Assembly (NCBI GenBank): GCA_002842035.1
Contig: PHBP01000005.1
Span: 1 to 64,000, forward strand
Source of the DNA: Candidatus Cloacimonetes bacterium HGW-Cloacimonetes-2
GTDB taxonomy: Bacteria; Cloacimonadota; Cloacimonadia; Cloacimonadales; Cloacimonadaceae
DNA: 64,000 nt
Direction of reading: 5' to 3'
The translations under genes were made by a program, and so were the position numbers. Shown one piece after another: positions 3,009 to 32,542 of this stretch; the stretch's first letter is position 1, and each line of letters begins with the position of its first letter. Below the pieces are notes generated by a model that worked only from the letters and a program-made list of their open reading frames with translations, had not been told where the DNA came from and searched no databases.

Positions 3009-6000
3009 ATGAAGAGATTATCATTACTCCTCGTGATGATATTCATCCTACTCGGTAGTCTGCTCGCCACCGAAGTAACAATCGGTGCAGGTAATGAGCA
3101 AGCTCGAAAACCCGTTGATATGTATTGGAAGAACTCATTGTTCCAAACCCTTTACTATCCGGATGAGCTTACTTTTGCCGCAGGTACGATTACCGGCGTC
3201 AAGTTCTACAACAATTTTGCAACTGATCTTCCTAGCAAGCCTATCAAGATCTGGTTGGGAACCACCACTCAAGCCACTCTCAGCACTTACATTCCCTCCA
3301 CACAGCTGACTTTGGTCTTTGATGGTATGGTCAATTTCCCTATGGGATCAAACACAATTGACATCACATTTAACACGCCATTTATGTACACTGGCAACAA
3401 CCTCGTGATGTTTGTGCAGCGTCCGATGGATACCGATTATTTCAGTTCCTCGGATTACTTCCTTTGCCAGACCGTTGGTACTGCCCGTTCTCTGAATCAT
3501 CAGAGCGACTCCACTACCTTCGATCCTGCTGCACCTCCCGCTTCTCCGACCATTTCCGGTCAGTTCCCCAAGACAACTTTCGTATATACCGGCCAACAGA
3601 TCACCAACGACCTCGGCGTCCTTGGTATCACCGGTAATATCACCCCCAGCGTCGGTGCTCCGACTACTTACAACATCACAGTCAAAAACAACGGTACCGC
3701 TACTCAGACTAACTACACAGTTAAGCTGATGAAAGAAGGCAACGTTGAGATTGCTTCCGTCCCCGGAACCTCCATTGCTACAATGCAGACCCTGAGCTTT
3801 GGTATTCCCTGGACTCCTACCGCCACCGGTCCTACCTACGTCTATGGTAAGGTCGAGATGGCTGGCGACGAAATCGCCACCAACAACCAAACCTCAAACC
3901 TGAACGTCGATGTCCAGGCTGCAGGTACGGTTGCTGTAACAGTCGGCGGCGGCGGTTCAACCGGCCGTATGCCTGTCGATATGTTCTACAAGAACTCCCT
4001 GTTTGAGACCATCTATCTGGGCTCCGAGCTCAATATCGGCGGTTTGCTTACAGGTATCCAATTCTACAACAACTTTGCCACCAACCTTCCCAATATGCCT
4101 ACCAATATTTGGGTTGGCGAAACCACACAGGCAGATCTGTCCGGCGGTTGGATTCCTTCCACCCAGCTTACCCAGGTCTATAGTGGCAACGTGAACTATC
4201 CTGCAGGCGCAAATAACATCCTGATCACCCTTACCACTCCCTATCCTTATGGTGGTGGCAATCTGGTCGTGATGGTCGAGCGTCCGATGGATACTCAGTA
4301 CTACTCCTCCAGCGATCTCTTCGTTACCCAGACGGGTACCGTTGCCAATCGCACCCTGAATGTCTATAGCGACACCACGGATTACGATCCTGCCGCTCCT
4401 CCTGCCGCCACCGGCAGCGCGATCTTCCCCAAGACTACCCTTATGTTCATCACCGATGGAATGGGTGCTCTTAGCGGAACCGTTTACGGACCCGGCGCAA
4501 CACCTCTGGCAGGTGCCACCGTTACCGTCGCAAACTCCACTCTGACTTATACCACAGGTGCCACCGGAACTTACAGCTTCCCTTACATTGCTGAGGGAAC
4601 ACACCAAGTATCCGCCACCAAGCACGGTTATACCGTTGATACCCAGACCGTGACCATCGTGGAAAATCAGACCACTACCCAAAACTTCACCGTCGCCCTG
4701 CTACCGCAGGTAACCGTTACCGGTATGGTAGTCGGTAGTGACCAGCCCACAGTCGGCTTGGTCGGTGCCACTGTTACCCTTACAGGTTACGAGCCTTACA
4801 CTGCCACCACAGTAGCCGGCGGTACCTTTACAATTCCGAACGTCTTTGCCAGCCAGACCTATGAATACACTGTTAGCTACACCGGTTATCAGAATGCCAC
4901 CGGTCAGGCAGTCGTCGGAACCACAAACCTCAATATGGGCACCATCACCGTCAACGAGATTGCCTTCCCCGCTACTCAGGTTGTTGCTACTGAAGCCGCA
5001 AACTTCAGCAACGTGACAGTTACCTGGGCCGAGCCCGGAACAGCCGGTGGCGAATGGCTCTCCTATTGCGGTGACAACGATGACAGTATCGGAACCGGCG
5101 GCGTCGCTGATTTCGACGTTGCCATCCGTTACCCCGCATCAGCTCTGACCGACTATGCCGGAATGAGCCTGCACACAGTCAAAGTCTGGCCTGCTCAGGC
5201 TGGAACCTTCTCCATCCGTGTTTGGACCGGCGGCACTGCCACTGCTCCTGCCCAGATGGTTGTTGACCAGCCCTTCACAGCCGTTCTTGGCGAATACAAC
5301 GAAATCACCCTCAATACCCCCGTTCCGATCACCGGTGCTGAAGAGCTCTGGTTTGGTTATCGCTGCAACGTGACTGCCGGTTATCCCGCAGGTTGCGATG
5401 CCGGTCCCCAAGTGGAAGGTTTTGGTAATATGATGTACTGGCAGGGTGCGTGGACTACGCTTTCTGCTCTTGCACCCACCCTTACCTACAACTGGAACAT
5501 CATGGGTTACGTTGGATTCAGCGGTCCCACCCGCGAGCTTGAGCTCAGACCTCTTGCTTTCAACGCCGACCGTCACAACACCGGCACTCTTGCCACCAGT
5601 GGCATCAGAAATGCCAGCGTTAGCGCTTCCAGACCCGAGAACAACGACCGTGTAATGACCGGTTACAAAGTCTGGCGTCTGCTTGCTGCCGATCAGGCCA
5701 ACGAAGCCAACTGGACTCTCCTCACCCCCAACACCATCACTGCACTTACCTATGTTGACAATGCCTGGCAGCCTCTGCCCAGCGGCGTTTACAAGTATGC
5801 AGTCAAATCCATCTACACCAACAATGTGATGGCTGCTGCCGCCTTCTCAAATGAGATTCACAAAGGTATGATGGGCACCCTGACCGGAACCGTTACCGAT
5901 CTTGGCAGCGGCACCCCGATTGCAGGCGCTACCGTTGTCGCCGGTGATTACAGCGGAACCACCAACGCAAGCGGTGTCTATAGCTTTGGCGTTTACCAAG

Positions 6001-8198
6001 GCATTTACACTGTAAACTGCGCTGCTCCCGGCTATCAGGCTGCTTCTCAACCCGCAGTCAATATCGCCGGTCTGCAGACCACAACTGTAAACTTCCAGCT
6101 TGCTGAAATTGCTCTTGCCCCGACTCAGGTCGTTTCCGAGCAAGTTCAGAATAATACCGTCGTCAACGTCTCCTGGATGCCACCGGATCCCAATGCCGTG
6201 GATATGACAGAAGACTTCGAAGGCACCTTCCCTCCCGAAGACTGGACACAGATCATCACCGATACCAGCGCTGCCGGAACCACCGGTGTGCTGCCTACCT
6301 GGTGCCAGGTCGGCGAAGTTGCCCTCACTCCTCCCGTTCCGCCTCATGGTGGAGCTGCTCAGGTTGGTTTGTGGTGGAGCTATAACCATCAGGATGAATG
6401 GCTCATTACTCCTGAATTCTCCTGCCCTCCCACTGCCTCTCTGAACGTCTGGAGCTATGTCTATTATGGCAGCACCAATGACGACCACTACTATGTCAAA
6501 GTCTCCACCAATGGTGGAACCGATTGGACCACACTGTGGGATGCCAGCACCCTTACCGGCGGCTGGAACTACTATGCCACTCCGATCACCGTAGATCTTG
6601 GCGCCTATGCCGGTCAGCAGATCAAATTGGCCTTCCATGCCGATGATCCTCCGTCAAACGATGGTCTCTGGTATGTCTGGTTCATCGACGACCTGACAGT
6701 CGGCAATGCCGATACAACCCTCAGATTCCCTGCCAGCCAGTTGACTTCCGTCTCTGCCGGCAACATGATCAAATACGAAAACGTGACCAATATCCCCGCC
6801 GTCGCCAGCCGTGCTGCCCTTACCAAGGGTGCCGAAGCTGTCGTCGAGCCCGTGATCGAATCCAACTACAGCTACAATCCTCCTCGCTCCCTCGTCGGCT
6901 ACAAAGTCTGGCGTCTGCTGCAAGGACAGGAAACCAACGAAGCTGTCTGGACTTCCCTCACCCCCAATTCCATCACAGCTACCGGTCATCAGGATACCGG
7001 TTGGGCTGGCGTTCCTGACGGAACTTATAAATGGGCTGTCAAAGCCGTCTATACCGGCAACGTAATGTCCATGCCCGCCTTCTCCAATCCTCAGACCAAG
7101 CTCACCCAGGTTGGCACCATTGCCGGTCTGGTACGTAATCCTCAAAACCAAGGCATCGCTGGTGCCACAGTTGTTTGCGGAACCGTCACTGCCACCACCA
7201 ACGCCTCCGGCGCATACGTGATGACAGTCGGCGCCGGCACAGTCAACGTTACCGCCTCTGCTCCCGGCTACAATGCCGTGACTCAGACCGGTATCGTAGT
7301 TGTCACCGGACAGACCACCACCGTGAACTTCACCCTTCCCGTTTCACAAATCGCGTTGCAAGATGGCTTTGAAAGCTATACCAACTTCACGCTCGATTTC
7401 GCACCCTGGACTTTGGTTGACGTCGATATGAGCACAACCTATGGTATGACCGGTATCACCTGGGAAAATGCCTATGCTGCAATGGCTTATATGATCTTCA
7501 ATCCGAGCGCCACAGTGCCCGCAGTCACCGATCTTGCACCTCACGGTGGAGCCAAGATGGCTGCTTCCTTCGCTTCCACAACTCCTCCCAACAACGACTG
7601 GATGATCACTCCTCTGGTCGCCGGCGGCGGAAACATTAAGTTCTGGGCTCGCTCCTATGTCGATACCTACGGTCTTGAGAGATTCAAGGTCGGTGTCTCC
7701 AGCGGCAGCACAAACCCGAACGACTTCACCATCATCAGCGGCGCTAACTACGTCCAGGCTCCTGTCGATTGGACTCAGTTCGAATACGATCTCGCAGCCT
7801 ACGCCGGTCAGCAAATCCGCATCGGTATCCAATGCCTCTCCAATGACGCCTTCATCTTCCTCGTTGACGATGTCGAAATCATGGGTGGCACAGATGCTAC
7901 CGACCCGACCGTACCTTCAGTCGTCACCAACCTGTATGGTAACTATCCTAACCCCTTCAATCCGGAAACTACCATCCGTTACAGTGTCGCCGAAGACGGT
8001 CCCGTCACCATCGACGTGTTCAACAGCCGTGGTCAGCTCGTGAAGACCTTGGTTAACGACAGCAAGGCTGCCGGAAACCACAGCGTCGTCTGGGATGGCC
8101 GTGACAACAACGGCTCCAGTGTTTCCAGCGGTATCTACTACTACAAGATGTACGCCGGCAAATACAGCAGCACACGCAAGATGATCCTGATGAAATAA
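3009..8198 (+). CDS. Giant modular secreted protein with type IX sorting tail
   Basis: A 1,729-residue exported protein of unknown target. An N-terminal signal peptide (about 1-20, ending SLLATE) precedes two copies of a roughly 160-residue module (about 33-194 and 317-481; both contain a PVDM..KNSLF motif, a FYNNFAT motif and a DPAAPPA motif). Four carboxypeptidase-regulatory-like beta-sandwiches (GxV....PIAGATV type) lie at about 485-565, 565-650, 956-1035 and 1369-1445. Two fibronectin-like segments contain GYKVWRLL, and two cleaved-adhesin/MAM-like jelly-roll domains lie at about 1064-1240 and 1451-1630. The last 90 residues (about 1640-1729) carry YPNPFNPET, SGIYYYKM and a lysine-rich end, typical of a FlgD-like/Por-type sorting domain that directs cargo through the type IX system to the cell surface. 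GGAGA at 3000-3004 supports the start. No catalytic motif was seen; adhesion or surface structure is an inference. Confidence 0.85.
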   Translation: MKRLSLLLVMIFILLGSLLATEVTIGAGNEQARKPVDMYWKNSLFQTLYYPDELTFAAGTITGVKFYNNFATDLPSKPIKIWLGTTTQATLSTYIPSTQLTLVFDGMVNFPMGSNTIDITFNTPFMYTGNNLVMFVQRPMDTDYFSSSDYFLCQTVGTARSLNHQSDSTTFDPAAPPASPTISGQFPKTTFVYTGQQITNDLGVLGITGNITPSVGAPTTYNITVKNNGTATQTNYTVKLMKEGNVEIASVPGTSIATMQTLSFGIPWTPTATGPTYVYGKVEMAGDEIATNNQTSNLNVDVQAAGTVAVTVGGGGSTGRMPVDMFYKNSLFETIYLGSELNIGGLLTGIQFYNNFATNLPNMPTNIWVGETTQADLSGGWIPSTQLTQVYSGNVNYPAGANNILITLTTPYPYGGGNLVVMVERPMDTQYYSSSDLFVTQTGTVANRTLNVYSDTTDYDPAAPPAATGSAIFPKTTLMFITDGMGALSGTVYGPGATPLAGATVTVANSTLTYTTGATGTYSFPYIAEGTHQVSATKHGYTVDTQTVTIVENQTTTQNFTVALLPQVTVTGMVVGSDQPTVGLVGATVTLTGYEPYTATTVAGGTFTIPNVFASQTYEYTVSYTGYQNATGQAVVGTTNLNMGTITVNEIAFPATQVVATEAANFSNVTVTWAEPGTAGGEWLSYCGDNDDSIGTGGVADFDVAIRYPASALTDYAGMSLHTVKVWPAQAGTFSIRVWTGGTATAPAQMVVDQPFTAVLGEYNEITLNTPVPITGAEELWFGYRCNVTAGYPAGCDAGPQVEGFGNMMYWQGAWTTLSALAPTLTYNWNIMGYVGFSGPTRELELRPLAFNADRHNTGTLATSGIRNASVSASRPENNDRVMTGYKVWRLLAADQANEANWTLLTPNTITALTYVDNAWQPLPSGVYKYAVKSIYTNNVMAAAAFSNEIHKGMMGTLTGTVTDLGSGTPIAGATVVAGDYSGTTNASGVYSFGVYQGIYTVNCAAPGYQAASQPAVNIAGLQTTTVNFQLAEIALAPTQVVSEQVQNNTVVNVSWMPPDPNAVDMTEDFEGTFPPEDWTQIITDTSAAGTTGVLPTWCQVGEVALTPPVPPHGGAAQVGLWWSYNHQDEWLITPEFSCPPTASLNVWSYVYYGSTNDDHYYVKVSTNGGTDWTTLWDASTLTGGWNYYATPITVDLGAYAGQQIKLAFHADDPPSNDGLWYVWFIDDLTVGNADTTLRFPASQLTSVSAGNMIKYENVTNIPAVASRAALTKGAEAVVEPVIESNYSYNPPRSLVGYKVWRLLQGQETNEAVWTSLTPNSITATGHQDTGWAGVPDGTYKWAVKAVYTGNVMSMPAFSNPQTKLTQVGTIAGLVRNPQNQGIAGATVVCGTVTATTNASGAYVMTVGAGTVNVTASAPGYNAVTQTGIVVVTGQTTTVNFTLPVSQIALQDGFESYTNFTLDFAPWTLVDVDMSTTYGMTGITWENAYAAMAYMIFNPSATVPAVTDLAPHGGAKMAASFASTTPPNNDWMITPLVAGGGNIKFWARSYVDTYGLERFKVGVSSGSTNPNDFTIISGANYVQAPVDWTQFEYDLAAYAGQQIRIGIQCLSNDAFIFLVDDVEIMGGTDATDPTVPSVVTNLYGNYPNPFNPETTIRYSVAEDGPVTIDVFNSRGQLVKTLVNDSKAAGNHSVVWDGRDNNGSSVSSGIYYYKMYAGKYSSTRKMILMK

Positions 8199-8226
8199 CG
8201 CCTCGCGCGCTAAATCATAACGAAAG

Positions 8227-8256
8227 ACCCCGCTGAAATGGCGGGGTTTTTCTTTT
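8227..8256 (+). terminator. Intrinsic terminator after the large secreted protein gene
   Basis: A perfect seven-base-pair stem (ACCCCGC at 8227-8233 with GCGGGGT at 8241-8247) around a seven-base loop runs into a T-rich tract (TTTTTCTTTT). It closes the single-gene unit 29 bases after the stop codon. Confidence 0.9.
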
Positions 8257-8903: not shown

Positions 8904-9800
8904 ATGGATTATTATCTTGGCTTGGATATAGGCGGAAGCAGCATCAAATATGGCTTGGAGGATGCAGAAGGCCAGCTAATCCTCTTCAGTTCCATCCCCC
9001 TCAGAGAGCGAAGTCTGGCAGAATTCCGGGCTATCACCCGCGATATCTTGCATATATGCCAAAGCTACACCCTTGATGGCGCAATCGCCGCCATTGGGAT
9101 CGGCAGTCCGGGCCAGATCGATCATCGACGCGGAATAATCATCGGCAACAATCCCAATCTTCCCTTTTGGACGATGATCTCGCCCACTGCAATAATGCCG
9201 GAAGATCTCGATCTGAAGGTCGTTTTTGATAATGATGCCAATCTGATGGCTCTGGGCGAAGCCAGCCATTATCCTGCAGGGCACAACGTCCTGGGAGTCA
9301 CCATCGGCAGTGGAATCGGCTGTGGATTTTGCATTGGAGGCAAGGTATTTGGCGGTAGCCGGGGTTATGCGATGGAATTGGGACACATCACGAGTATTAT
9401 CGATGGCGCAGCTTGCAATTGCGGCAGATACGGCTGTTTGGAAGCATATTCCTCGCTGAATGGGATGCGCAATCGCCTCTGCGAGATCGGGTATAAAGCC
9501 AATGACTGGAATTTCGTCCAGCTCTTGCAAGCAGCAGAACTTGATAAAGAGGTCAAAGCCATACTGGACAAAGGGATAGAGCTCTTTAGCCTGGCTCTGG
9601 CAAATCTGATGATCATACTGGAGCCGGATCATTTGGTAATAGGGGGTGGAGCCTCTGAAATTCCGCTTTACCCGGTTCAGGAACTGATCGACAAAATCCA
9701 ATCCCTGCTGCCTCCTGAGCTCACAGATATCAGCATCGATCTTGCCAAACAAGGCAATAAAGCCGGAGTCTTGGGTGCAATCAGGCTGGCAAGAGGCTAA
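8904..9800 (+). CDS. ROK-family sugar kinase (glucokinase/N-acetylhexosamine kinase type)
   Basis: Cytoplasmic ATP-dependent kinase that phosphorylates a hexose or N-acetylhexosamine. The 298-residue product has the phosphate-binding motif DIGGSSIK at 8-15, the catalytic aspartate in FDNDANL (D111), and the ROK zinc site H161, C171, C173 and C178 in the CNCGRYGCLE stretch. The length is normal for a kinase; there is no N-terminal helix-turn-helix, so it is an enzyme and not a ROK repressor. AAGGAGC lies just before the ATG. It heads the glycan operon, with 13 bases to the next gene. Its sugar cannot be read from the sequence; mannose, GlcNAc or glucose released by the downstream enzymes are the likely candidates. 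Confidence 0.92.
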   Translation: MDYYLGLDIGGSSIKYGLEDAEGQLILFSSIPLRERSLAEFRAITRDILHICQSYTLDGAIAAIGIGSPGQIDHRRGIIIGNNPNLPFWTMISPTAIMPEDLDLKVVFDNDANLMALGEASHYPAGHNVLGVTIGSGIGCGFCIGGKVFGGSRGYAMELGHITSIIDGAACNCGRYGCLEAYSSLNGMRNRLCEIGYKANDWNFVQLLQAAELDKEVKAILDKGIELFSLALANLMIILEPDHLVIGGGASEIPLYPVQELIDKIQSLLPPELTDISIDLAKQGNKAGVLGAIRLARG

Positions 9801-9813
9801 AAACAGCTTGCCT

Positions 9814-12255
9814 ATGATCAGACGAATCCTGATCATCCTGTCATTTCTGCTGGTAATTTGCCTGTATGCCGTGCCAGCCCCGGTAGTCTTGAAAGTCTTT
9901 GAGCTTCCCGATCCCCGCGCCACAGATGCTTATTCCAAGGCCAATCTGGCGGTTGTGCAAGCTTTTCGCTCCAAGTATCCCCACATCGAGCTGCGAGCTT
10001 TTTCCGGTATCAAGATCGAAGGGATGGATCTGGATAGTGGGCCTCTGATGGCTATCGCCGGAGGAGTGGCACCGGATATTCTCTACGTAAACTTCCGCCA
10101 GAGTGATACTTATATACAAAACAACTTCCTCTATCCACTGGATGAATTCATCGCCCGGGAAAATCCTGAAGATATGGCGCTAAGGGTGGAAGCACCTGTC
10201 TGGCAGGTGATCCGACGCATTCGCAAAGGAGACGATAAAGAACATACCTGGGCCTTGCCCTACGAGACTCTGGTAAGGGTCTTGCTCTATCGCAAGGACG
10301 TCTTTCGCAGAGCAGGTTTGGACCCCAACCGTCCCCCGCGAACTTGGGAGGAATTCCGAAACTATGCCCGCATCCTCAGCGATCCTGCCAATTCCAATTA
10401 CGGCACGGTTCTGGCTGGTGGTTCTCAGGCTGCTTACGACTGGCTACCCTTCCTCTGGGCTGCTGGCGGTGATGCAGTTAGCTACGACTCTGTAAACCGG
10501 CAGTGGAACGCCAGCTTTGCCTCTGATGCCGGGATCACTGCTGTGGAGTATTACCTGAGCCTTCTCACCAGCGAGTGGAAGGACTCTGCCAGCCGTTCCC
10601 AACGTGGCTTTGCCATCCGGGAAGGCGATTGGGGCTATCTCTGGATGGAAGGCAAGATCGGTATGAAGATGGACTATCTCTCCCAGCAGAATATGGGCGG
10701 GAGATACGATCCCAATCTGTATGGCTTTGCGCCTTCGCCAGCCGGACCTTCCGGACGCGGTGGCAGCGAGATCAATTGCCGAATGATGGGCATCTTTAGC
10801 GGAGCAGGAATAAGTAACAATGCAGGCTTGGGAAGCCGTGATCCTGCCTTGGTGCGTGAAGCTGCCTGGCAGTACATACAGTTTTACGATAGCGAAGAAG
10901 CTCGCAAGATTCGCCTCAAGGTAATGATCGAGAGCGGTTTTGGCAAGATGCAGAATCCCGTCTTCCTAAAGCGCTATGGCTATGAAGACTATCTGCGCTT
11001 TGCGCCTGCGGGGTGGTTGGAGACCTTTGAGACTGCAATGCGGGAAGGCAAGCCGGAGCCCTATGGCGACAACTGCCAGAAGGTTTATGAATTTATGACC
11101 TATCCCTTGGATGAGCTGATCAAGCTGGATCTGGCAGGCAAGCTGGGGAAGACCGCAGCAGAGCGTCGGAGCAAGATCGGCTCTATCCTCAGTGCGGCGC
11201 AGTCCAGAACCAATCAGGAAATGATCGGAATCGTTGCGCCCCGGCAGCAGGCTCTTCGAGAACGCTTAGCTTCTGTGATAGCAGCTCTGATCGTCTTTGG
11301 CTTTGGCTTTACAATTTGGCGAGTCTGGAAGATATTGGCGCCCAATACAATCGCATCGGATTCCGGGAAAAAGAGCAGGATTCCGCTGCTTGTACTGCTC
11401 TTGGCTCCGGCGGTGATCAGCATCTTTGTATGGAAATACGTGCCGATGATCACGGGTAGCCTGATGGCAGTAAGGGATTTCCGGCTGGTGGGTGAGAGTC
11501 CTTTTGTGGGCGTGGGTAATCTGGCAGAGGTGCTATTTGACGCCACCTGGTGGGCATCAGTACTGCGAACGCTTTATTATATGCTGCTCAGCCTGGGGCT
11601 GGGCTTTTTCCCTCCTATAATCCTGGCAATAATGCTGCAGGAAGTCTCCCATGGCAAGATGCTCTATAGGGTGATCTACTACCTTCCGGCGGTGATCAGC
11701 GGGGTGATCGTGATCTATCTCTGGAAGCTGCTTTATAGCCCGAATGAGAGCGGTGCTTTGAATCAGTTGATTATGAGTATCGGCTTGCCCAAGAGTATGT
11801 GGATACGGGATGAGCATCTGGCGATGCTCTGTGTGGTTATTCCGGGGATCTGGGCAGGAATGGGACCGGGCAGCCTGATCTACCTGGCAGCTCTAAAGAA
11901 TATCCCAAATGAGCTCTACGAAGCATCTGATATAGATGGAGCGGGGTTCTTTGCCAAGCTCAGATATATAGTTTTCCCCAGCCTCAAGGGGCTGATCATT
12001 ATTCAGTTTATCGCCGCCTTCATTGTGGCTGCTCAATCCAGCGATTTCATCCTGGTGATGACCTTTGGCGGTCCGGGAGAAGCTACCCGGGTGGCAGATC
12101 TGCTCATCTTTGAGAAGGCATACTTGTATCTCAAATTTGGGCTTGCGACCACTATGGCGTGGCTCCTGAGCCTCTTTCTGATGGGCTTTACCGTGCTGCA
12201 GATCAAGTATCTCTCCAGAATGGAATTCAAGACCGCCAAAGGAGAGCAGGAATGA
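9814..12255 (+). CDS. Fused sugar-binding protein and ABC permease (MalE-MalF type)
   Basis: A single 813-residue polypeptide joining two normally separate parts of a carbohydrate ABC importer. Residues 1-20 form a signal-like hydrophobic start. Residues about 25-470 are an extracellular solute-binding domain of family 1 (PDILYVNF, ALPYETLVRVLLYRKDVF, GDWGYLWMEGKIGM). A membrane segment at about 485-505 leads to a MalF-like permease (about 522-805) with roughly six helices and the EAA loop ELYEASDIDGAG.F....FP at about 700-722, which docks the ATPase. The start at 9814 is the ATG 13 bases after the kinase stop; an earlier in-frame start would lack the exported N-terminus. The stop overlaps the next start by four bases. 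Tethering the binding protein to the channel is unusual for this family. No ATPase gene is nearby, so a shared MsmX-like ATPase elsewhere is inferred. Confidence 0.88.
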   Translation: MIRRILIILSFLLVICLYAVPAPVVLKVFELPDPRATDAYSKANLAVVQAFRSKYPHIELRAFSGIKIEGMDLDSGPLMAIAGGVAPDILYVNFRQSDTYIQNNFLYPLDEFIARENPEDMALRVEAPVWQVIRRIRKGDDKEHTWALPYETLVRVLLYRKDVFRRAGLDPNRPPRTWEEFRNYARILSDPANSNYGTVLAGGSQAAYDWLPFLWAAGGDAVSYDSVNRQWNASFASDAGITAVEYYLSLLTSEWKDSASRSQRGFAIREGDWGYLWMEGKIGMKMDYLSQQNMGGRYDPNLYGFAPSPAGPSGRGGSEINCRMMGIFSGAGISNNAGLGSRDPALVREAAWQYIQFYDSEEARKIRLKVMIESGFGKMQNPVFLKRYGYEDYLRFAPAGWLETFETAMREGKPEPYGDNCQKVYEFMTYPLDELIKLDLAGKLGKTAAERRSKIGSILSAAQSRTNQEMIGIVAPRQQALRERLASVIAALIVFGFGFTIWRVWKILAPNTIASDSGKKSRIPLLVLLLAPAVISIFVWKYVPMITGSLMAVRDFRLVGESPFVGVGNLAEVLFDATWWASVLRTLYYMLLSLGLGFFPPIILAIMLQEVSHGKMLYRVIYYLPAVISGVIVIYLWKLLYSPNESGALNQLIMSIGLPKSMWIRDEHLAMLCVVIPGIWAGMGPGSLIYLAALKNIPNELYEASDIDGAGFFAKLRYIVFPSLKGLIIIQFIAAFIVAAQSSDFILVMTFGGPGEATRVADLLIFEKAYLYLKFGLATTMAWLLSLFLMGFTVLQIKYLSRMEFKTAKGEQE

Positions 12256-14129
12256 GCATCATCGGCAAGGTCGGACGTAAATCTCCCAAGGTGCGCATCC
12301 TCAATCTGGCTCTGCATCTGATCCTGATCCTGGGCTCTCTTACGATGATCTATCCCTTTGTATTGATGATCTCTTCTTCGCTCAAGAGCAATGTGGATGG
12401 AGTCCGGATCACCTTGATTCCGCCCTATCTGCACAGTGATGAAGCCTTGTATCAGAAGTATCTGGAAAGCCGGTACAACGAGGAAAGCAGCCGCTTGATG
12501 GATAACTATCCGGGTAGCTGGATTTCCTTTGCCGAGGTGGAGCTAGAGGAAGATAAAGCCAATCCTGCCCTCTATGAACTCTGGAAGGACTTTTTGAGGG
12601 ATAAGCAAGAACAGATCAGCGTCTTTCACTACTATGTGGCAGAGCACTATGGACGAGGTATCTATCCTCTGGCGCAGCGATTGTTCCGGGCACAGCTCAG
12701 GGAAGAAAACCAGAACAGCCTTGTGGAGTTTAACAACCGCTATGGCACGGGAGCCGTGACCTGGGAAGAGATTGTAGTGGAAGAAAAGGATATCTATTCC
12801 CGCAATTTCGTAAGCAGTGACGAGGGTTATCTGGGACGCTTCCGACGCTTTAAGGAGACCACTCCCTTGTGGATGAGGTATTACGTTAATCTAGACGGTA
12901 GCTTTGTGAATAACGAGCTTATCCCGGCCTATGGCGGTAAGCTGGAGCTCTTTAACCGGGCTCATCAGACCAGCTATAGTGCCTGGAATCAGATCCGGCT
13001 GCCGGTCTCAGTGCCGGCTCCCGGTGATTCCCTGCGTGAGATTTGGCTGCATTATGTGCGCTCTGGCTTGAATCTGCAGCATCTCAAGCTGGCGGAGGAA
13101 GCTGGGGAGGATTATCGGGGCTATCTGCGGGGGAAGTATGGTAGCATTCTGCTCCTGAATCAGGCGTGGAAGACTGGTTTTGATAGCTTTGGTGAGGTGC
13201 AAATCCCCGCTCGTATGCCCGAAAGCGGTGCGGAAGCTGATGATCTGGCGTTTTATATCCAGAGTCTGGCAAGACCTGAGCATCTGCGCATCAATAGCCT
13301 GGCGGAGGATTTCCGCAGCTATATCTATGCTCGGATGGGTTCTCTGGAGACAATCAACACTTTCCTCAAGACCGATTATACAGAGCTGAGCCAGATACCT
13401 TTTCCCAGCCTGGAACAGGATTACTATGCCTTTGAGGCTCGGAAGGGAGAGATCAGGCGGGAGTTTCTCTGGCGCAATTATGCGATGGCACTGGATCAGA
13501 TGCTTTCTGATGCCAGATCTTTGCGTAATACAGGCATCTATGTGCTGCTCTCGATCCTGCTGGCAATCACGGTCAATCCCTTGGCAGCTTATGCGCTTAG
13601 CAGGTTTAAGCCACGCTTCAGCTACCAACTCATTATGCTCTTTATGCTCACGATGGCTTTCCCGGCAATGGTGATGGGCATCCCAAACTTCCTGATGCTG
13701 AAGCGCTTGAATCTGCTCAATACCTTCTGGGCATTGGTCTTGCCTGCAGCAGCAGATGGATACTTTATCTTCCTGCTCAAGGGCTTTTTTGATAGCCTGC
13801 CCAAGGAAATTTATGAAAGCGCCAGCATCGATGGAGCAGGTGAATTTCGCCTCTTCTGGCAGTTCACCCTCTGGCTCAGTAAGCCCATCCTGGCGGTAAT
13901 TGCCCTGGGTGCCTTCAATGCTGCTTACAGGAACTTCCTGTTTGCCTTTATAGTATGTCAGGATCAATCGATGTGGACTCTGATGGTGCACATTTATACC
14001 TTGATGCAAAGAGCCAGCACGGGAGTGGGCTATGCCGCTCTGGTGATTGCCGCGATTCCCACACTGCTGATCTTTGTCTTCTTCCAGAATATCATTATCA
14101 AGGGGATTGTCGTCCCTATGGAGAAATAA
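12252..14129 (+). CDS. ABC sugar permease (MalG type) with a large repeat-bearing insert
   Basis: Second membrane subunit of the importer. The 625-residue product is about twice the usual size. Helix one (about 18-42) is followed by about 375 residues predicted to lie outside the membrane (about 50-425), then five more helices with the EAA loop EIYESASIDGAG at about 519-530. The insert contains about five units, roughly 65-79 residues apart (near 66, 145, 221, 288 and 353). The clearest contain YGGKLELFN....TSYSAWNQIRLP, YGSILLLN.AWKTGFDSFGEVQIP and MGSLETIN..LKTDYTELSQIPFP. This motif recalls a helix-turn found in GH42-type glycosidases (YGs...LN.aWgT.f.s...I..P); that resemblance is from memory. 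No catalytic pair was identified. A substrate-capturing or docking role is an inference. The stop abuts the GH38 start. Confidence 0.85.
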   Translation: MSIIGKVGRKSPKVRILNLALHLILILGSLTMIYPFVLMISSSLKSNVDGVRITLIPPYLHSDEALYQKYLESRYNEESSRLMDNYPGSWISFAEVELEEDKANPALYELWKDFLRDKQEQISVFHYYVAEHYGRGIYPLAQRLFRAQLREENQNSLVEFNNRYGTGAVTWEEIVVEEKDIYSRNFVSSDEGYLGRFRRFKETTPLWMRYYVNLDGSFVNNELIPAYGGKLELFNRAHQTSYSAWNQIRLPVSVPAPGDSLREIWLHYVRSGLNLQHLKLAEEAGEDYRGYLRGKYGSILLLNQAWKTGFDSFGEVQIPARMPESGAEADDLAFYIQSLARPEHLRINSLAEDFRSYIYARMGSLETINTFLKTDYTELSQIPFPSLEQDYYAFEARKGEIRREFLWRNYAMALDQMLSDARSLRNTGIYVLLSILLAITVNPLAAYALSRFKPRFSYQLIMLFMLTMAFPAMVMGIPNFLMLKRLNLLNTFWALVLPAAADGYFIFLLKGFFDSLPKEIYESASIDGAGEFRLFWQFTLWLSKPILAVIALGAFNAAYRNFLFAFIVCQDQSMWTLMVHIYTLMQRASTGVGYAALVIAAIPTLLIFVFFQNIIIKGIVVPMEK

Positions 14130-17100
14130 ATGCACAATGAGAAGATTCACATAGAGCGTATCAAGCGCTTGATCGAAAGACAAAAACCTCTGATTCACAC
14201 GCTAAAGAGCGACATACCGGCTTATCTGGTGAACTGCGAGAGTCCTCTGTCTCACCCTCATCACGAGGGCTGTAATGCTCTAAAAGAGATCATTAAAGGA
14301 GAAGTCTGGGGCAAGAAATGGGGAAGTGCTCACTTTGAAGTGAAAGTCACAATTCCCGAAAGCTTTGCCGGGCTGAAGGCTGGCTTGTGGTTTGATTGTG
14401 ATGGTGAAGCCTGCGTGATGAAGGATGGAACGCCCTACCAGGGACTCACACCCAAGGTTGATTGGTATCACAACGCTGCTAAATACTATGTTCCGCTCTC
14501 TGATGAAGCCAGATCCGGCGAGGAATATCATATACTCATTGAAGCCTCTGCCAATGATCTGTTTGGAGCCGGTAAGGAGGAATATGCCTTAAAGGAATGC
14601 GCTCTGGTGAGCCTTGATACGCAGCTACGCAGTGATTTGCTGGATCTGGAACTGCTGCTAAATCTCGCCACTGCTCTGCCGGCAGGGCAGGCACGGCGCA
14701 AGAAGATCCTCTGGGGGCTCAATGAAGCTTGTAATTACTGGCATTCAGATAGAGCTCAAGCCCGGCAGATCCTGCAGGAACTGCTCTCAAAGCCTGCTAA
14801 TGCCAGTGCGCTTACTGCCTATAGTGTCGGTCACGCGCATCTGGATCTGGCGTGGCTCTGGCCCCTGAGAGAATCCAAACGTAAGGGCGGCAGAACCTTT
14901 GCCAATGCCTTGCGCCTCCTTGAGCAGTATCAGGATTACGTCTTTGGAGCTTCACAGGCTCAGCTATACCTATGGATAAAGGACATATATCCCGGGCTCT
15001 ATGAAGAGGTGAAGGCAGCAGTCAAGACAGGCAGATGGGAGATTCAGGGTGCTTCATGGGTGGAATTTGACACCAACCTGCCCTCCGGAGAGTCTATCAT
15101 CAGGCAGTTTTACTATGGCAAGAAGTTCTTTTCCAGAGAGTTTGGTTTTGTGCCCAAAACGCTCTGGCTACCGGATTGCTTTGGCTTCAATGGCAACCTG
15201 CCTCAACTGATGAAAGGCTGTGGTGTGGACTATTTTATGACTCAGAAGCTGAGTTGGAACGAGAGTAACACTTTCCCTCACCATCTCTTCATCTGGCAAG
15301 GTATAGATGGTACCGAGCTTCCGGCACATCAGCTTCCTACCAACGACTACAACTTCTCAAACAACCCCTCTGCCTTCCTGCAAACAGAAGAACGCTATGC
15401 CCAGGCAGAGATCAGCGATGCCTATCTTAATCTTTATGGCATCGGTGATGGTGGCGGTGGACCCACTCTGAATCATATCGAGTACGGTCTCCGTCAGCAG
15501 AATCTGGAGGGTGTAAGCCGCTTCCGCTTTGCCCGCAGTGACGAGTTTTTCGACTATTACAAGAGCCTGGATTCTCGGCTCTTGCCCAAGGCCTATGGCG
15601 AGCTATATCTGGAGTTTCACCGCGGCACCTACACCTCTCAAGCCCTGATGAAGCTGAACAACTTCACCAGCCAAAGGCTGCTAAGCCTGGCAGAATTCCT
15701 GGCTGCTGCCGGCTCTCTGCCCTACCCCGAGGAACTGCATCCCATCTGGGAAGACACCTTGCTGCTGCAGTTTCACGATATCATCCCCGGTTCTTCCATC
15801 ACAATGGTCTATGAAGATGCCCACCGTATCTCCGCAGAGAACCACACAAAGCTCCTGGCTCTGGCGCAGCAATTGCTAGAACACGAGACGAATAGAGCTA
15901 TCACGGTGATAAACGATAGTCAGTGGGACAGAACCGAGTGGATAGAGCTGGATGCTGGACTATCTGCCGCTGACAACCAATATATATCCGATAGAATAGA
16001 GAATAACAAGGAGATGATCAAGCTGCAATTACCACCCTTCTCCCGGCTCAGTCTTCCACTAAGAGATGCAGAACAGAGTCCTGCCGCAGATACTCCTTCC
16101 CTCATCACAGAAAACAGCTTCCTCAGGGCAGAGATCAGCCCCCGCGGCAGCATCCTGAGCCTGATCATCAAGCCTGAAGACCGCGAGATGCTCCTGAAAG
16201 AATCCAATCTGCAAAAGCTCTGGGAGGATAAACCCAATAACTGGGGTGCCTGGGATATCAACCACTTCTATCACGATACTGTGCCCCAAGAGGCTATAGA
16301 TGGCAAGCTGATTACAGAGCTCTGTATCAACCGCCCAGGCAAGCTGCAAAGACTGGTGCAAGACATCCCAATAGGTGATCTGATGCTCAGGCAGACTATT
16401 GAGCTGGGTGCCCAAGACCAGTTCCTCAGAATCAAACACGAGATCAATTGGCAGACCACCCACCGGATGCTGCGCACCCATTTCTACCCCAAAATCAAAG
16501 CAAATCAAGCTACTTACGAGATAGCTATGGGAACAATCAAGCGCAGTACCCGTCCTAAAAACGCCTGGGAACTGGCTCAATTTGAGGTTCCTGCCCATAG
16601 ATTTGCTGATTATTCCCAGAGCGACTACGGCTGTGCACTGCTTTCCAAAGCCAAATACGGCTATCGCATTGTGGAAGACGAGATGGAACTCAACCTGCTA
16701 CGTAGCCCGGCCGACGTTGATCCCACTGCCGACCAGCATCAACATACTTATGAATACGCTTTCTACCCGCATCGCGGCTCATTTGAGGATTCCCGGGTAC
16801 TGCAAATGGCACATTGCTATGCATACCCCCTTGAAGTAATGCTAGGAGGAAAGACCGCACCAAGCCTGGAGCAAATTGGTATCAAGCTCGAAGCTACAGC
16901 GGTCAAACTCGATACCATCAAACCGGCTTACGGTCGCGATGGCATCGTGCTAAGGCTTTATGAATACCGCGGAGGTTCTGCCAAAGCCCAGCTTACTCTG
17001 CCCCAGGAATACAAACACGCCTACCGTTGTATGATGACAGAGGAGATCCTGGAGCCAGTGGATTTCACTGATGCTCTCACGCTGCAGTTCGAGGCTCACC

Positions 17101-17138
17101 AGATCATCACCATGCTCTTTACCAAGGAACCCCAATGA
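14130..17138 (+). CDS. Alpha-mannosidase, glycoside hydrolase family 38
   Basis: Hydrolyses alpha-linked mannose from oligosaccharides with retention of configuration, using a zinc ion. The 1,002-residue protein has the N-terminal GH38 barrel with the zinc-binding HAHLDLAW (H237, D239), the nucleophile D349 in WLPDCFGF, and the later zinc histidine in QFHDIIPG, followed by the middle three-helix and large beta C-terminal domains. No signal peptide is seen, so it acts in the cytoplasm on imported sugar. Its ATG follows the permease stop directly and its stop overlaps the GH20 start by four bases, consistent with coupled translation. Length and motifs are normal for bacterial class II mannosidases. 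Confidence 0.95.
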   Translation: MHNEKIHIERIKRLIERQKPLIHTLKSDIPAYLVNCESPLSHPHHEGCNALKEIIKGEVWGKKWGSAHFEVKVTIPESFAGLKAGLWFDCDGEACVMKDGTPYQGLTPKVDWYHNAAKYYVPLSDEARSGEEYHILIEASANDLFGAGKEEYALKECALVSLDTQLRSDLLDLELLLNLATALPAGQARRKKILWGLNEACNYWHSDRAQARQILQELLSKPANASALTAYSVGHAHLDLAWLWPLRESKRKGGRTFANALRLLEQYQDYVFGASQAQLYLWIKDIYPGLYEEVKAAVKTGRWEIQGASWVEFDTNLPSGESIIRQFYYGKKFFSREFGFVPKTLWLPDCFGFNGNLPQLMKGCGVDYFMTQKLSWNESNTFPHHLFIWQGIDGTELPAHQLPTNDYNFSNNPSAFLQTEERYAQAEISDAYLNLYGIGDGGGGPTLNHIEYGLRQQNLEGVSRFRFARSDEFFDYYKSLDSRLLPKAYGELYLEFHRGTYTSQALMKLNNFTSQRLLSLAEFLAAAGSLPYPEELHPIWEDTLLLQFHDIIPGSSITMVYEDAHRISAENHTKLLALAQQLLEHETNRAITVINDSQWDRTEWIELDAGLSAADNQYISDRIENNKEMIKLQLPPFSRLSLPLRDAEQSPAADTPSLITENSFLRAEISPRGSILSLIIKPEDREMLLKESNLQKLWEDKPNNWGAWDINHFYHDTVPQEAIDGKLITELCINRPGKLQRLVQDIPIGDLMLRQTIELGAQDQFLRIKHEINWQTTHRMLRTHFYPKIKANQATYEIAMGTIKRSTRPKNAWELAQFEVPAHRFADYSQSDYGCALLSKAKYGYRIVEDEMELNLLRSPADVDPTADQHQHTYEYAFYPHRGSFEDSRVLQMAHCYAYPLEVMLGGKTAPSLEQIGIKLEATAVKLDTIKPAYGRDGIVLRLYEYRGGSAKAQLTLPQEYKHAYRCMMTEEILEPVDFTDALTLQFEAHQIITMLFTKEPQ

Positions 17139-18565
17139 TCCCCAAACCGGTAGCGCAAACTATCTATACAGAGAGCTTCCCGGCTCCCCGTCAGTTTTCT
17201 GCGGGAGAGGGACTTACCACTATAGCAGAGGAACTGAACCACTTCCTCAATGGCTTGCAGAGCCAGACTACACCGGATGAATCAGGTAAAGCCTGGCGTC
17301 TGGAACTTCATACAGGAGCAGCTTATGAGCATCCCGAAACCTACCAGCTGGAGATTGATCAGGGCAGGATTCTGCTTTCCGCAGCCGATCCCCAAGCCCT
17401 GCGCTATGCCCTCAGCACCCTGAAACAGCTCTTATTCTCTGCTCACAAAACAGACGGCCTTATCCACAAACAACTAATTCGCGACTACCCCCGCTATCGC
17501 TGGAGAGGCCTGCATCTGGACGTAAGCCGTCACATCTTTGAGCCCGCCTTCATCAAGCAGTATCTCAAGCTGATGAGCGAGCTCAAACTAAACAAGTTCC
17601 ACTGGCATCTCACAGACGATCAAGGCTGGCGCATCGAGAGTAAAAGATACCCGCTCCTGCAGGAGATCAGCGCCTGGCGCAAAGAAGCCGATGGCGAAAG
17701 ATACGGAGGCTACTACACCCAGGGGGAGATCCGCGAAGTCGTGGCTTATGCCACAGAGCTTGGCATCGAGGTGATCCCGGAGCTTGATCTCCCGGGACAT
17801 ATGATGGCAGTACTATCCGCCTATCCCCAGTTTGCCTGCAATCCCCAAGCCTTTGATACAATGAACGTTTGGGGTATCTCCGAGGACATCCTCTGTGCCG
17901 GAAAAGACTCCACAAGGGATTTCATCCTGGATCTCGTTGACGAAGTGGCGGAGCTCTTTCCCGGAGCCTATTTCCACCTGGGTGGTGATGAAGCTCCCAA
18001 GGATAGATGGAAAGCCTGTCCATACTGCCAAAAGCGCATACGGGAACTGGGTCTGAAAGACGAAGAAGACCTGCAAAGCTGGCTCTTTGACACAGTCACT
18101 GCGCATCTGGCATTGAGGGGCAAGACTGTAATCGGTTGGGACGAGATTCTGGAAGGAAATCCCAGCCGCGAGACCATCGCTATGCTCTGGAGAGGGGATG
18201 CCAAAGCTGCCGCCCTGCAATCCGAGAATCGTGGCTACAGAGCTATCCTGGTGCCCAATCACTATTTATACTTCGACTGGAAGGCATCCGATGATAGCCC
18301 CGGTGCCTTTGGAGTGACCACCCTGCAAAAGGTCTGGCAGTTTCCAATTGATGAGTATTTCATTCAGCGTCCAGATTTGCTTCTGGGCGTGCAGGCCAAT
18401 CTCTGGACGGAGCAGATTTCCACTACCCAGCGTGCCTGGGAGATGCTGATTCCCAGAGTCTATGCCCTCTCCGAACTGGCATGGGGCAAGCAGTCTGATT
18501 ACCCTGATTTTGAAGCCAGAGCACAGCTTTGGGAGGATTACATTTCCTATGCGTTACCCCGATAA
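17135..18565 (+). CDS. Beta-N-acetylhexosaminidase, glycoside hydrolase family 20
   Basis: Releases terminal GlcNAc or GalNAc by substrate-assisted catalysis. The 476-residue protein has a GH20b-like N-terminal domain (about 1-110) and the catalytic barrel with GLHLDVSRH, KFHWHLTDDQGWR, the PELDLPGHM strand and the catalytic pair D285-E286 in HLGGDEAPKD, plus GWDEILEG. There is no signal peptide, so it is predicted to be cytoplasmic. It overlaps GH38 by four bases and the GH130 gene by 17 bases. In this operon it would remove GlcNAc from mannose-GlcNAc glycans taken up by the importer. Confidence 0.95.
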   Translation: MIPKPVAQTIYTESFPAPRQFSAGEGLTTIAEELNHFLNGLQSQTTPDESGKAWRLELHTGAAYEHPETYQLEIDQGRILLSAADPQALRYALSTLKQLLFSAHKTDGLIHKQLIRDYPRYRWRGLHLDVSRHIFEPAFIKQYLKLMSELKLNKFHWHLTDDQGWRIESKRYPLLQEISAWRKEADGERYGGYYTQGEIREVVAYATELGIEVIPELDLPGHMMAVLSAYPQFACNPQAFDTMNVWGISEDILCAGKDSTRDFILDLVDEVAELFPGAYFHLGGDEAPKDRWKACPYCQKRIRELGLKDEEDLQSWLFDTVTAHLALRGKTVIGWDEILEGNPSRETIAMLWRGDAKAAALQSENRGYRAILVPNHYLYFDWKASDDSPGAFGVTTLQKVWQFPIDEYFIQRPDLLLGVQANLWTEQISTTQRAWEMLIPRVYALSELAWGKQSDYPDFEARAQLWEDYISYALPR

Positions 18566-19508
18566 TCCCATCATCCACAGAGGCTTGGTCCCTCAGACCG
18601 ACAAGCGTATTTTTGACCCCAGCTCCGTCTTCAATCCCGGAGGCTACCTGCAGGAAGGATACTATAAGCTGATCCTCCGGGTGCAAAACCGTGCTCGTGA
18701 GACCTTTCTGCTGCCTGCCAAGTCCATCGATGGCATCACTTTTGAGATATCAGAGACGCCCTTGGATTTCTGCTCAATGGAAGACTTTTCCTACACTATC
18801 TACCATATCTACGATCCCCGTCCGGTAATGCTGGGACAGCGCTTAGTAGTTGTCTGCGCTATAGATACTGATTCCGGCTGCCGATTGGCTTTGTTTGAGC
18901 AGGAGGATAGCAACCGGCTCCGCTATCTGGGTATGCCGCTGGATCAGGAGCTGAGAAATGGCGTCATCTTCCCGGAGCAGATCGACGGAAAGTACATTAT
19001 GTTCGCCCGTCCCAACGACTTTGCCGGCTCCGACGGCGTAAAGTCCGGCAAACAGATTGTGGCGTATCAATCTCTCGATCTGCTACATTGGGAACAGCTT
19101 GCGGCAGTGTTCACGGGCAGAGCACACTATTGGGATGAACTGATCGGCTCCGGCCCCACACCGCTCAAAACAAGAGCCGGCTGGCTGCATATCTATCACG
19201 GAGTCGCCACTCACTTCGCTTCTGCAAATCTTTATCAGATGGGCATTTCGTTGCAGGATTTGCAGCGTCCCTGGATCACCCGTTCCCGCGGAAAGTACAA
19301 TATCCTGGAGCCAAGGGAATACTACGAACTTGTGGGACAGGTGCCCGGAGTGGTCTTCCCTTCTGCCGCTTTAAGCCGGGACTACGATTCCGAGGGCTTC
19401 CTCCTGCCGGGGGCCAAAGTGAACGTATATTACGGCGCTGCAGATACATCTGTAGCCCTGGCACAATTCACACTGGAAGAACTACTGGAGGCAGCTTATG
19501 CAAATTAG
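18549..19508 (+). CDS. GH130 glycoside phosphorylase/hydrolase (mannoside-specific)
   Basis: Family GH130 enzymes cleave beta-mannosides, most by phosphorolysis to mannose 1-phosphate; known members act on Man-beta-1,4-Glc, Man-beta-1,4-GlcNAc or beta-mannans. The 319-residue product has the five-bladed propeller hallmarks IFDPSSVFN near the N-terminus, YDPRPV in mid-sequence, and GSGPTPLKTRAGWLHIYHGV. The ATG at 18549 (MRYPDNPIIHRG) is preferred because it matches the family N-terminus; upstream in-frame sequence belongs to GH20. Phosphorylase versus hydrolase cannot be settled by eye. With GH38 and GH20 next to it, Man-GlcNAc from an N-glycan core is the most economical substrate (inference). 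Confidence 0.9.
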   Translation: MRYPDNPIIHRGLVPQTDKRIFDPSSVFNPGGYLQEGYYKLILRVQNRARETFLLPAKSIDGITFEISETPLDFCSMEDFSYTIYHIYDPRPVMLGQRLVVVCAIDTDSGCRLALFEQEDSNRLRYLGMPLDQELRNGVIFPEQIDGKYIMFARPNDFAGSDGVKSGKQIVAYQSLDLLHWEQLAAVFTGRAHYWDELIGSGPTPLKTRAGWLHIYHGVATHFASANLYQMGISLQDLQRPWITRSRGKYNILEPREYYELVGQVPGVVFPSAALSRDYDSEGFLLPGAKVNVYYGAADTSVALAQFTLEELLEAAYAN

Positions 19509-20583
19509 ACTTATCAGCCTGGTAATCACCCTCTTAATACTCGGCTTTACACTCTCCGCCGAGACTTTTCCCGTGCCCAGGGGCGATTTTGCTCCTCGCA
19601 ACTACACCGCAATGCGTCCCATTGATGAGATCGTGATCGATGGCAACCTGACTGAGTCGAGCTGGCAAGCAGCCGCCTGGACTGAGGACTTTGTGGATAT
19701 CGAAGGCGATCTGAAGCCACAGCCCTTTCACCGCACCAGAGTCAAGATGCTCTGGGATTCTTCCTACCTCTATTTTGGCGCGGTAATGCAGGAGCCTCAT
19801 ATCTGGGCAAAGCTCACCGAGCGCGATGCCGTTATCTTCCACGACAACGATTTTGAGATCTTTCTCGATCCTGATGGTGACACTCACGACTATTACGAAC
19901 TGGAGCTCAACGCTCTGGGCACGCTCTGGGATCTGCTCCTTATCAAGCCCTACAGGGATCGTGGGCAGGTGGCAGTAAATGCATGGGATATCAGATCGAT
20001 AGACTATGCCATCGGTATCGAGGGAAGCCTCAATGATCCATCCGATACGGACAGCCTCTGGTGCGTAGAACTAAAGCTCCCTCTATCAGTAATCTCCGAA
20101 CTTGCCAATATGCCTGTACCACCAAGGGATGGAGACTTTTGGCGCCTGAATTTCTCACGTGTGCAGTGGGATACCGATATCGTGGATGGTGAATATCGGA
20201 AGATTCCCGGCAAGCCTGAGTATAACTGGGTCTGGAGCCCTCAGGGTTTGATCGCGATGCACTATCCGGAGCGCTGGGCTTACCTCTTCTTTTCGGATCG
20301 TCCGGTGGGTAGCTATCCCGTCTCTTTCCAGATTCCTGCCCGGGAGGGAGTGCGGGAAGCTCTACGCCAGATCTATTATCTACAGAAACAATACTTTATG
20401 GATAATGGACGCTATGCCCGCAGCCTGCGTAGTTTGGGAGCAAAGCCGATTTATTGGCAGGGCAAAAAGCTCCGTCTGCGCTATGAAAGAACCAGTGCAG
20501 GCTATCTGATCACCAGCCCGGTAGCACCGGAGCTGCCCTCCTACCACATCCGCGAGGATGGAAAGATCTGGACTGCAAAGTAG
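19498..20583 (+). CDS. Secreted CBM9-like carbohydrate-binding protein
   Basis: A 361-residue exported protein with a signal peptide (about 1-21) and a carbohydrate-binding family 9-like beta-sandwich (about 38-265: IDGNLTESSWQ near its start, YFGAVMQEPHIWA, DNDFEIFLDPDGDTHDYYELE). These domains bind reducing ends of sugars. The last 90 residues contain REALRQIYYLQKQYFMDNG and RYARSLRSLG, like the globular part of pseudopilins (residues about 280-360), an unusual partner. The gene overlaps GH130 by 11 bases and ends the operon. It may present glycan to the importer; this is inference. No catalytic motif was seen. Confidence 0.8.
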   Translation: MQIRLISLVITLLILGFTLSAETFPVPRGDFAPRNYTAMRPIDEIVIDGNLTESSWQAAAWTEDFVDIEGDLKPQPFHRTRVKMLWDSSYLYFGAVMQEPHIWAKLTERDAVIFHDNDFEIFLDPDGDTHDYYELELNALGTLWDLLLIKPYRDRGQVAVNAWDIRSIDYAIGIEGSLNDPSDTDSLWCVELKLPLSVISELANMPVPPRDGDFWRLNFSRVQWDTDIVDGEYRKIPGKPEYNWVWSPQGLIAMHYPERWAYLFFSDRPVGSYPVSFQIPAREGVREALRQIYYLQKQYFMDNGRYARSLRSLGAKPIYWQGKKLRLRYERTSAGYLITSPVAPELPSYHIREDGKIWTAK

Positions 20584-32534: not shown

Positions 32535-32542
32535 TAATCCTC

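Follow-up and report, generated by a model that had tools for sequence, protein, structure and literature searches.

A Cloacimonadota operon for the probable import and dismantling of N-glycan-derived oligosaccharides, with an unusually built importer

Proteins of animals, plants and fungi carry N-glycan-type sugar trees, and the locus described here raises the question of whether a bacterium of the Cloacimonadota could take up such glycans whole, once released, and cut them inside the cell. The locus is a run of seven close-set genes on the plus strand, at 8904–20583 of a 64,000-nucleotide stretch of DNA that is referred to throughout as the window (positions 1 to 64,000 of contig PHBP01000005.1, assembly GCA_002842035.1, Candidatus Cloacimonetes bacterium HGW-Cloacimonetes-2; source genome 2.5 Mb in 14 contigs, 99.55% complete, G000). 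Based on gene content and order, conservation, co-occurrence and conserved catalytic residues, it is fairly probable that this operon imports and dismantles free oligosaccharides derived from N-glycans. An earlier note on this DNA had described a compact run of genes for a kinase, an importer, glycoside hydrolases (GH) of families 38, 20 and 130 and a protein with a family 9 carbohydrate-binding module (CBM9); all seven genes are found with clear Pfam matches. A chance run or mis-annotation is excluded by the strong family matches for all parts and by a gene order that recurs in related loci.

Among the cutting enzymes, the GH38 alpha-mannosidase (14130–17138; Pfam GH38 N domain, 6.5e-81) is closest to SpAms1 (1.4e-134). 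The SpAms1 zinc ligands His290, Asp292, Asp402 and His615 and the acid/base Asp493 all align with identical residues in the window enzyme, the equivalents being H237, D239, D349, D440 and the His of a QFHD motif. In yeast, Ams1 trims free oligosaccharides freed from glycoproteins, and its zinc-binding and catalytic residues are named in PMC7609781. The window enzyme matches the Ams1/MAN2C1 type in its N-terminal jelly-roll domain, zinc ligands and catalytic acids, whereas it is bacterial and sits in an operon with an importer, its mannosidase activity being a prediction. The adjoining GH20 beta-hexosaminidase (17135–18565; PF00728, 1e-102) carries a GGDE motif that aligns with the solved beta-hexosaminidase 6q63 (6e-100), and in one related locus (L018) GH20 and GH130 form a single open reading frame (ORF) of 812 residues with both domains. 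Reading of the N-termini reveals a hydrophobic leader on the CBM9 protein and on the fused binding protein of the importer, and none on GH38, GH20, GH130 or the kinase, so that the signal-peptide-free enzymes of the earlier description are borne out.

The importer is encoded by a solute-binding protein (SBP) fused to a MalF/UgpA-type permease (9814–12255) and by a MalG/UgpE-type permease that bears a large insert (12252–14129), and its presence is closely tied to that of GH38. Among the 124 Cloacimonadota genomes compared, the insert-bearing permease occurs in 45 and GH38 in 44; both are present in 40, the importer alone in five, GH38 alone in four (G005, G065, G092 and G096) and neither in 75 (Fisher p 2e-22, a value that ignores shared ancestry). 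The five importer-only genomes are 67–83% complete. In two genomes of one genus (G031 and G032, genus g7), the modules are unlinked yet still co-occur, with GH38-GH20-GH130-CBM9 on a different contig (L076, L075) from the importer. Together with the leaderless enzymes, this tie supports the earlier idea of whole import and internal cutting.

A scan for the insert-bearing permease yields 37 related loci (L-numbers; G-numbers denote genomes), which are mostly Cloacimonadota and also include some Delongbacteria, one Firestonebacteria, two unclassified bacteria and one ordinary Herbaspirillum permease (L045). In a close relative (L009, Candidatus Cloacimonadota) the permease is 88% identical to that of the window. 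The importer pair, GH38, GH20, GH130 and CBM9 stand all together in 14 of the 37; in several more the sequence ends partway through the run, and there are also loci that have the importer without these enzymes, the importer pair in L011, L012, L013, L017 and L020 having no adjoining operon GH genes. In a Delongbacteria locus (L041), the importer has a UgpC-type ATPase and CBM9 as neighbours, together with a GH130 that among solved structures is closest to UhgbMP (68% identity, 4.9e-152, versus 60% and 1.2e-129 for RaMP2 and 56% and 1.1e-121 for TM1225), and a Cloacimonadota locus (L061) has the same arrangement of CBM9, UhgbMP-type GH130 and importer minus the ATPase. The window clade of GH130 and the UhgbMP type take the same place next to this importer and CBM9, which suggests that both cut the same bond. 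Separately, proteins of about 320 aa that are alike at their starts lie by GH130 in L061 (1360–2325) and by GH38 in L077 (5094–6050); the former has a weak, below-cut-off match to GHL10/DUF4015 glycosidase-like domains, and the pair are possibly a further enzyme of the route.

The proposed route would begin with glycans released by other members of the community or, in some relatives, perhaps by a secreted PNGase F-like enzyme. As the architecture of the genes suggests, both permeases, the one fused to the SBP and the one with the insert, would then bring the oligosaccharide uncut through the inner membrane, with energy from a UgpC/MalK-type ATPase encoded elsewhere. In the cytosol, GH38, by its family and conserved catalytic residues, would take off alpha-mannoses; GH20 would take off terminal beta-GlcNAc or split the chitobiose core, and the ROK-family kinase and a phosphomannose isomerase (PMI) homologue would channel mannose into glycolysis.

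Candidate release enzymes stand beside operon genes in some of these relatives. In L057, a leader-bearing PNGase F-like gene (4604–6232; 1pnf 2.7e-15, PF09113 2.8e-16) precedes a window-clade GH130, CBM9 and the two importer genes on one strand, four further genes being scattered among them. Its product aligns with PNGase F such that Asp-Arg at 60–61 and Glu206 are kept and Glu118 becomes Asp, in the numbering used for the catalytic residues. GH20 likewise adjoins a PNGase F-like gene in L065 (21 bases apart), L067 (divergently) and L062 (one gene between). Of the four families sought across the 124 genomes, PNGase F has homologues in 14, GH18 in 10, and GH85 and PNGase A in none. Nine of the 14 genomes with PNGase F homologues also hold the importer or GH38 (p 0.0012 among the 75 genomes outside the window's family, which is taken as G000–G048). 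Since PNGase-released glycans keep two GlcNAc residues, we infer that chitobiose would be left for GH20 to split. The N-glycan substrate named by the earlier note is thus supported, short of proof, by the PNGase F-like neighbours, by the UhgbMP-type GH130 in the same slot and by a GH38 closest to Ams1.

The observations that weigh against an N-glycan substrate concern release, the GH130 protein, the fate of GlcNAc and the binding protein. Searches for GH18, GH85, PNGase F and PNGase A find no match in the window's nearly complete genome. Of the 29 genomes in its family that bear the importer or GH38, 28 are equally without a release-enzyme match, and the remaining one has a GH18 or PNGase F match; either such cells would rely on release by others, or their substrate is a different one. 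Ten of the 14 PNGase F-like loci show no operon gene in the stretch examined, and over the whole phylum the PNGase F association is weak (p 0.044). GH18 matches coincide with the importer or GH38 in seven of their ten genomes (p 0.044), and in L028 a leader-bearing GH18 gene lies within the operon, between GH130 and CBM9 (12157–13950). This protein, from the sole operon with an internal GH18, is chitinase-like (best NCBIfam model ChiD, far below its cut-off) and speaks for a chitin-related side role as much as for an N-glycan one. One alternative is that the operon serves another glycan of alpha-mannose and beta-N-acetylhexosamine (beta-HexNAc), for instance mixed chito-oligosaccharides or a glycan from microbial surfaces, its likeness to N-glycan systems being incidental. 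The release enzymes not found in the window's genome, the chitinase-like GH18 of L028 and the altered active site of an uncharacterised GH130 clade all favour this alternative, which nevertheless leaves the PNGase F-like and UhgbMP-type partners unexplained and is rather unlikely.

The GH130 protein (18549–19508, 319 aa; PF04041, 2.7e-33) is 31–35% identical to the three reference enzymes (34% to UhgbMP, 35% to TM1225, 31% to RaMP2; 28–38% across clade members), and alignment and tree join it with its relatives in one clade, split from all three together with a support of 0.994. Phylogenetic placement, the check on substrate proposed by the earlier note, groups it with neither the Man-GlcNAc nor the mannan enzymes; the window protein is equidistant from the two, and placement was dropped as decisive because the protein lies outside all reference enzymes compared. 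The clade shares with these enzymes the catalytic Tyr-Asp and five active-site equivalents (Arg150, Arg168, His231, Tyr242 and Asp304 of UhgbMP, 4udg), whereas the equivalents of Lys212 and His174 are absent from all 18 clade sequences. Moreover, an invariant Trp-Asp-Glu-Leu (WDEL) directly precedes the missing-lysine position in all 18. Arg150, Arg168 and Lys212 of UhgbMP are taken by us to be the three basic phosphate-binding residues of GH130 mannoside phosphorylases; one of these basic residues is thus missing, and phosphorylase activity of the window protein is not assured. The Tyr before the catalytic Asp, present in the window protein and 15 clade relatives, marks GH130_1/2 according to section 20 of PMC4599007, GH130_NC having Glu instead. 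The same source gives acids in place of the basic phosphate-binding residues as a mark of GH130 hydrolases; because of this rule and the lost lysine both activities are kept in play, and from its sequence the protein is probably a phosphorylase, a hydrolase being quite conceivable. Either way, the clade offers a test of how phosphorylases lose or alter phosphate use.

Among solved structures, the window GH130 comes closest to TM1225, a beta-1,4-mannooligosaccharide phosphorylase, which points to a second alternative: that the substrate is plant beta-mannan or glucomannan oligosaccharides, with GH130 acting as a mannooligosaccharide phosphorylase and GH38 and GH20 stripping side groups. An importer of general oligosaccharide type and the PMI homologue would also suit this. 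By Pfam, however, the operon holds no mannanase or other mannan enzyme, mannan breakdown needs neither alpha-mannose nor beta-HexNAc removal, and the UhgbMP-closest GH130 and PNGase F-like neighbours of related loci speak against it, so that a mannan substrate is decidedly unlikely.

The ROK-family sugar kinase (8904–9800, 298 aa; PF00480, 2e-45) has a glucokinase as its best solved relative (1.5e-32) and contains CxCGxxGCxE, which we take to be a zinc motif. The gene is present here, as the earlier note had it, but in only one of the 37 related loci (L010), and it is not a conserved part of the operon. As a product that this kinase would phosphorylate, mannose is plausible, the window's genome having a type I PMI homologue, and GlcNAc entering the usual NagA/NagB route is not: the genome gives no match to the NagB family and none to NagA above cut-off, and GlcNAc would therefore not enter that route. 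These negatives weaken the kinase as a GlcNAc kinase feeding NagA/NagB, alternative GlcNAc routes not having been searched for. The model of the binding protein, for its part, points to no particular ligand. Recycling by the cell of sugars from its own glycans or glycoproteins, as the cytosolic enzymes and the release enzymes not found in the window's genome would allow, is very improbable, since a dedicated SBP importer and a patchy distribution (importer or GH38 in 49 of 124 genomes) fit a nutritional trait better than essential recycling.

For the N-glycan route, the importer is the part whose architecture departs from the simple picture of two importer parts; two importer genes are indeed present, and no ATPase gene lies in the operon run. 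The SBP-permease fusion (813 aa from ATG 9814; SBP_bac_1 3e-19 and BPD_transp_1 2e-8 in one ORF) is kept as one ORF of 773–869 aa in 28 of the 37 related loci. The other nine comprise one broken fusion (L010), five loci truncated by contig ends, two contigs with only the other permease, and the ordinary permease of L045. The SBP part is modelled as similar to maltose-binding protein (MBP), with 5ci5 as best match (Z 32.4, root-mean-square deviation (rmsd) 3.1 over 367 residues), and the model passes into a long helix, expected to span the membrane. NgtS is not among the matches listed for this model (50 entries), which excludes nothing. In its MalF/MalG-type permeases and MBP-like SBP, the importer matches the carbohydrate uptake transporter 1 (CUT1) type of ATP-binding cassette (ABC) importers. 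A UgpC-type ATPase encoded on contig C6 of the same genome (L008) is a candidate partner; it is 55% identical to the ATPase beside the Delongbacteria importers and would fit a shared ATPase like the one proposed for NgtS-P1-P2 (PMC5215778). SBPs can occur fused to a permease, as noted in PMC9045158. Within the titles and abstract openings of the literature searched, no CUT1 sugar importer with an SBP-permease fusion or a GH42-like permease insert is described.

The second permease (625 aa; BPD_transp_1 1.4e-9) carries its insert of 363 residues between membrane segments 1 and 2 of the MalG-type fold, as located by alignment (12387–13475). AlphaFold2 predicts the insert with a pLDDT of 93 and a pTM of 0.88 from a 33-sequence alignment, as a solenoid of five repeats of about 70 residues each, mainly helical with a short strand. 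Internal similarity of the window insert scores 79 against a maximum of 52 over 100 shuffles, and the inserts of relatives lie clearly above 100 shuffles in three of four tested, L022 only barely (53 versus 52). Specifically, one repeat superposes on a subdomain of GH42 (6ptm; VIA Z 9.0, rmsd 1.6, 64 residues, 27% identity), the next VIA matches being other GH42, GH14 and related enzymes; for a helical repeat a Z near 9 is only moderate. Independently of the structure comparison, Pfam matches the insert to GH42 (PF02449, 4.3e-6). The insert is 108–139 residues longer in 14 of 33 relatives, which probably hold one or two additional repeats. Foldseek comparison of the insert model with the PDB gives no match at E up to 0.001, and since the VIA match is limited to one repeat, this blank is not taken to indicate a new fold. 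GH42 beta-galactosidases have a catalytic (beta/alpha)8 barrel with two glutamates. The insert as a GH42 enzyme was rejected, the model being an almost all-helical solenoid without a barrel, in which a single 64-residue unit aligns to GH42.

Use of N-glycans through an ABC importer is already known, and the system here would work like those of Streptococcus pneumoniae and Bifidobacterium longum; new are the lineage, the distinctive importer and the divergent GH130. As set out in PMC5215778, S. pneumoniae has a CPL locus (GH20C, ROK, GH38, GH125, GH92, GH29), EndoD and the importer NgtS-NgtP1-NgtP2. The two systems share an ABC importer without SusCD, GH38 with GH20 and ROK, intracellular trimming (predicted here) and an ATPase encoded elsewhere, whereas the Cloacimonadota system differs in phylum, in the absence of GH85 EndoD, in the presence of GH130, and in the SBP-permease fusion and solenoid insert. 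It also differs from NgtS-type import in that no known N-glycan-releasing enzyme (GH18, GH85, PNGase F or PNGase A) is found in the same genome. The high-mannose N-glycan cluster of B. longum has three GH38 genes and GH125 (PMC10154615); GH38 enzymes are common to both, whereas the window operon has a single GH38 and no GH125, the core link presumably being cut by GH130. Bacteroides thetaiotaomicron uses the GH18 BT3987, GH92 enzymes and the GH130 BT1033 (PMC10154615 and PMC10619541). With it the operon shares, in its proposed role, a GH130 for Man-beta-1,4-GlcNAc, and it differs in having no SusC/SusD, GH18 or GH92, in GH38 replacing GH92 and in the divergence of its GH130. Pfam finds no SusC/SusD pair among 39 scanned ORFs of the window, in agreement with the earlier note; its contrast with Bacteroides-type loci is right, but Streptococcus already offers a described N-glycan system of ABC type that lacks SusCD (PMC5215778).

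The uncultured Cloacimonadota are often found in anaerobic digesters and are generally portrayed as fermenters of amino acids that may also oxidise propionate (PMC13082233). The titles and abstract openings of the literature searched, with subscription papers mostly outside, describe no glycosidase, N-glycan or PNGase system for the phylum. If the proposal holds, an N-glycan route gives Cloacimonadota a direct share of eukaryotic glycoprotein sugar, and cross-feeding on released N-glycans becomes testable. The importer is a natural example both of an SBP tied 1:1 to its permease and of repeats arrayed inside a permease. A bolder proposal, put forward tentatively and with considerable doubt, is that the importer represents a new structural CUT1 class, with the SBP built into the permease and a GH42-derived array of variable length holding bulky branched glycans over the pore. 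Coupled to it, the GH130 clade would have given up phosphate binding and be an N-glycan-core beta-mannosidase, the Asp-Glu of the invariant WDEL replacing the phosphate-binding lysine.

The last gene of the operon encodes a secreted CBM9-domain protein (19498–20583, 361 aa; CBM9_1, 2.3e-9) that is kept in 15 of the 37 related loci; Pfam reports no domain in its C-terminal part, of which the final 80 or so residues resemble, as we take it, pseudopilin C-termini. Neighbouring operon genes overlap by at most 17 bases or are separated by at most 13. Probable starts after the kinase are ATG 9814, 12252, 14130, 17135, 18549 and 19498, and the ORF tool offers longer alternatives at TTG 9742, GTG 12159 and ATG 18462. 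No tRNA is found in the window. A terminator-like hairpin of 14 pairs (8222–8252, plus strand; pattern scan, consensus match only) lies between the operon and an upstream gene for a large secreted protein (3009–8198). This protein has carboxypeptidase-regulatory-like repeats and a C-terminal sorting tail (Por_Secre_tail/FlgD_ig), and similar tails also occur near several related loci. Downstream, on the minus strand (28822–35925), a cluster encodes xanthine dehydrogenase-type molybdopterin subunits, an amidohydrolase, an IF-2B-family isomerase and a molybdopterin oxidoreductase domain protein, and is perhaps used for purines or nucleosides.

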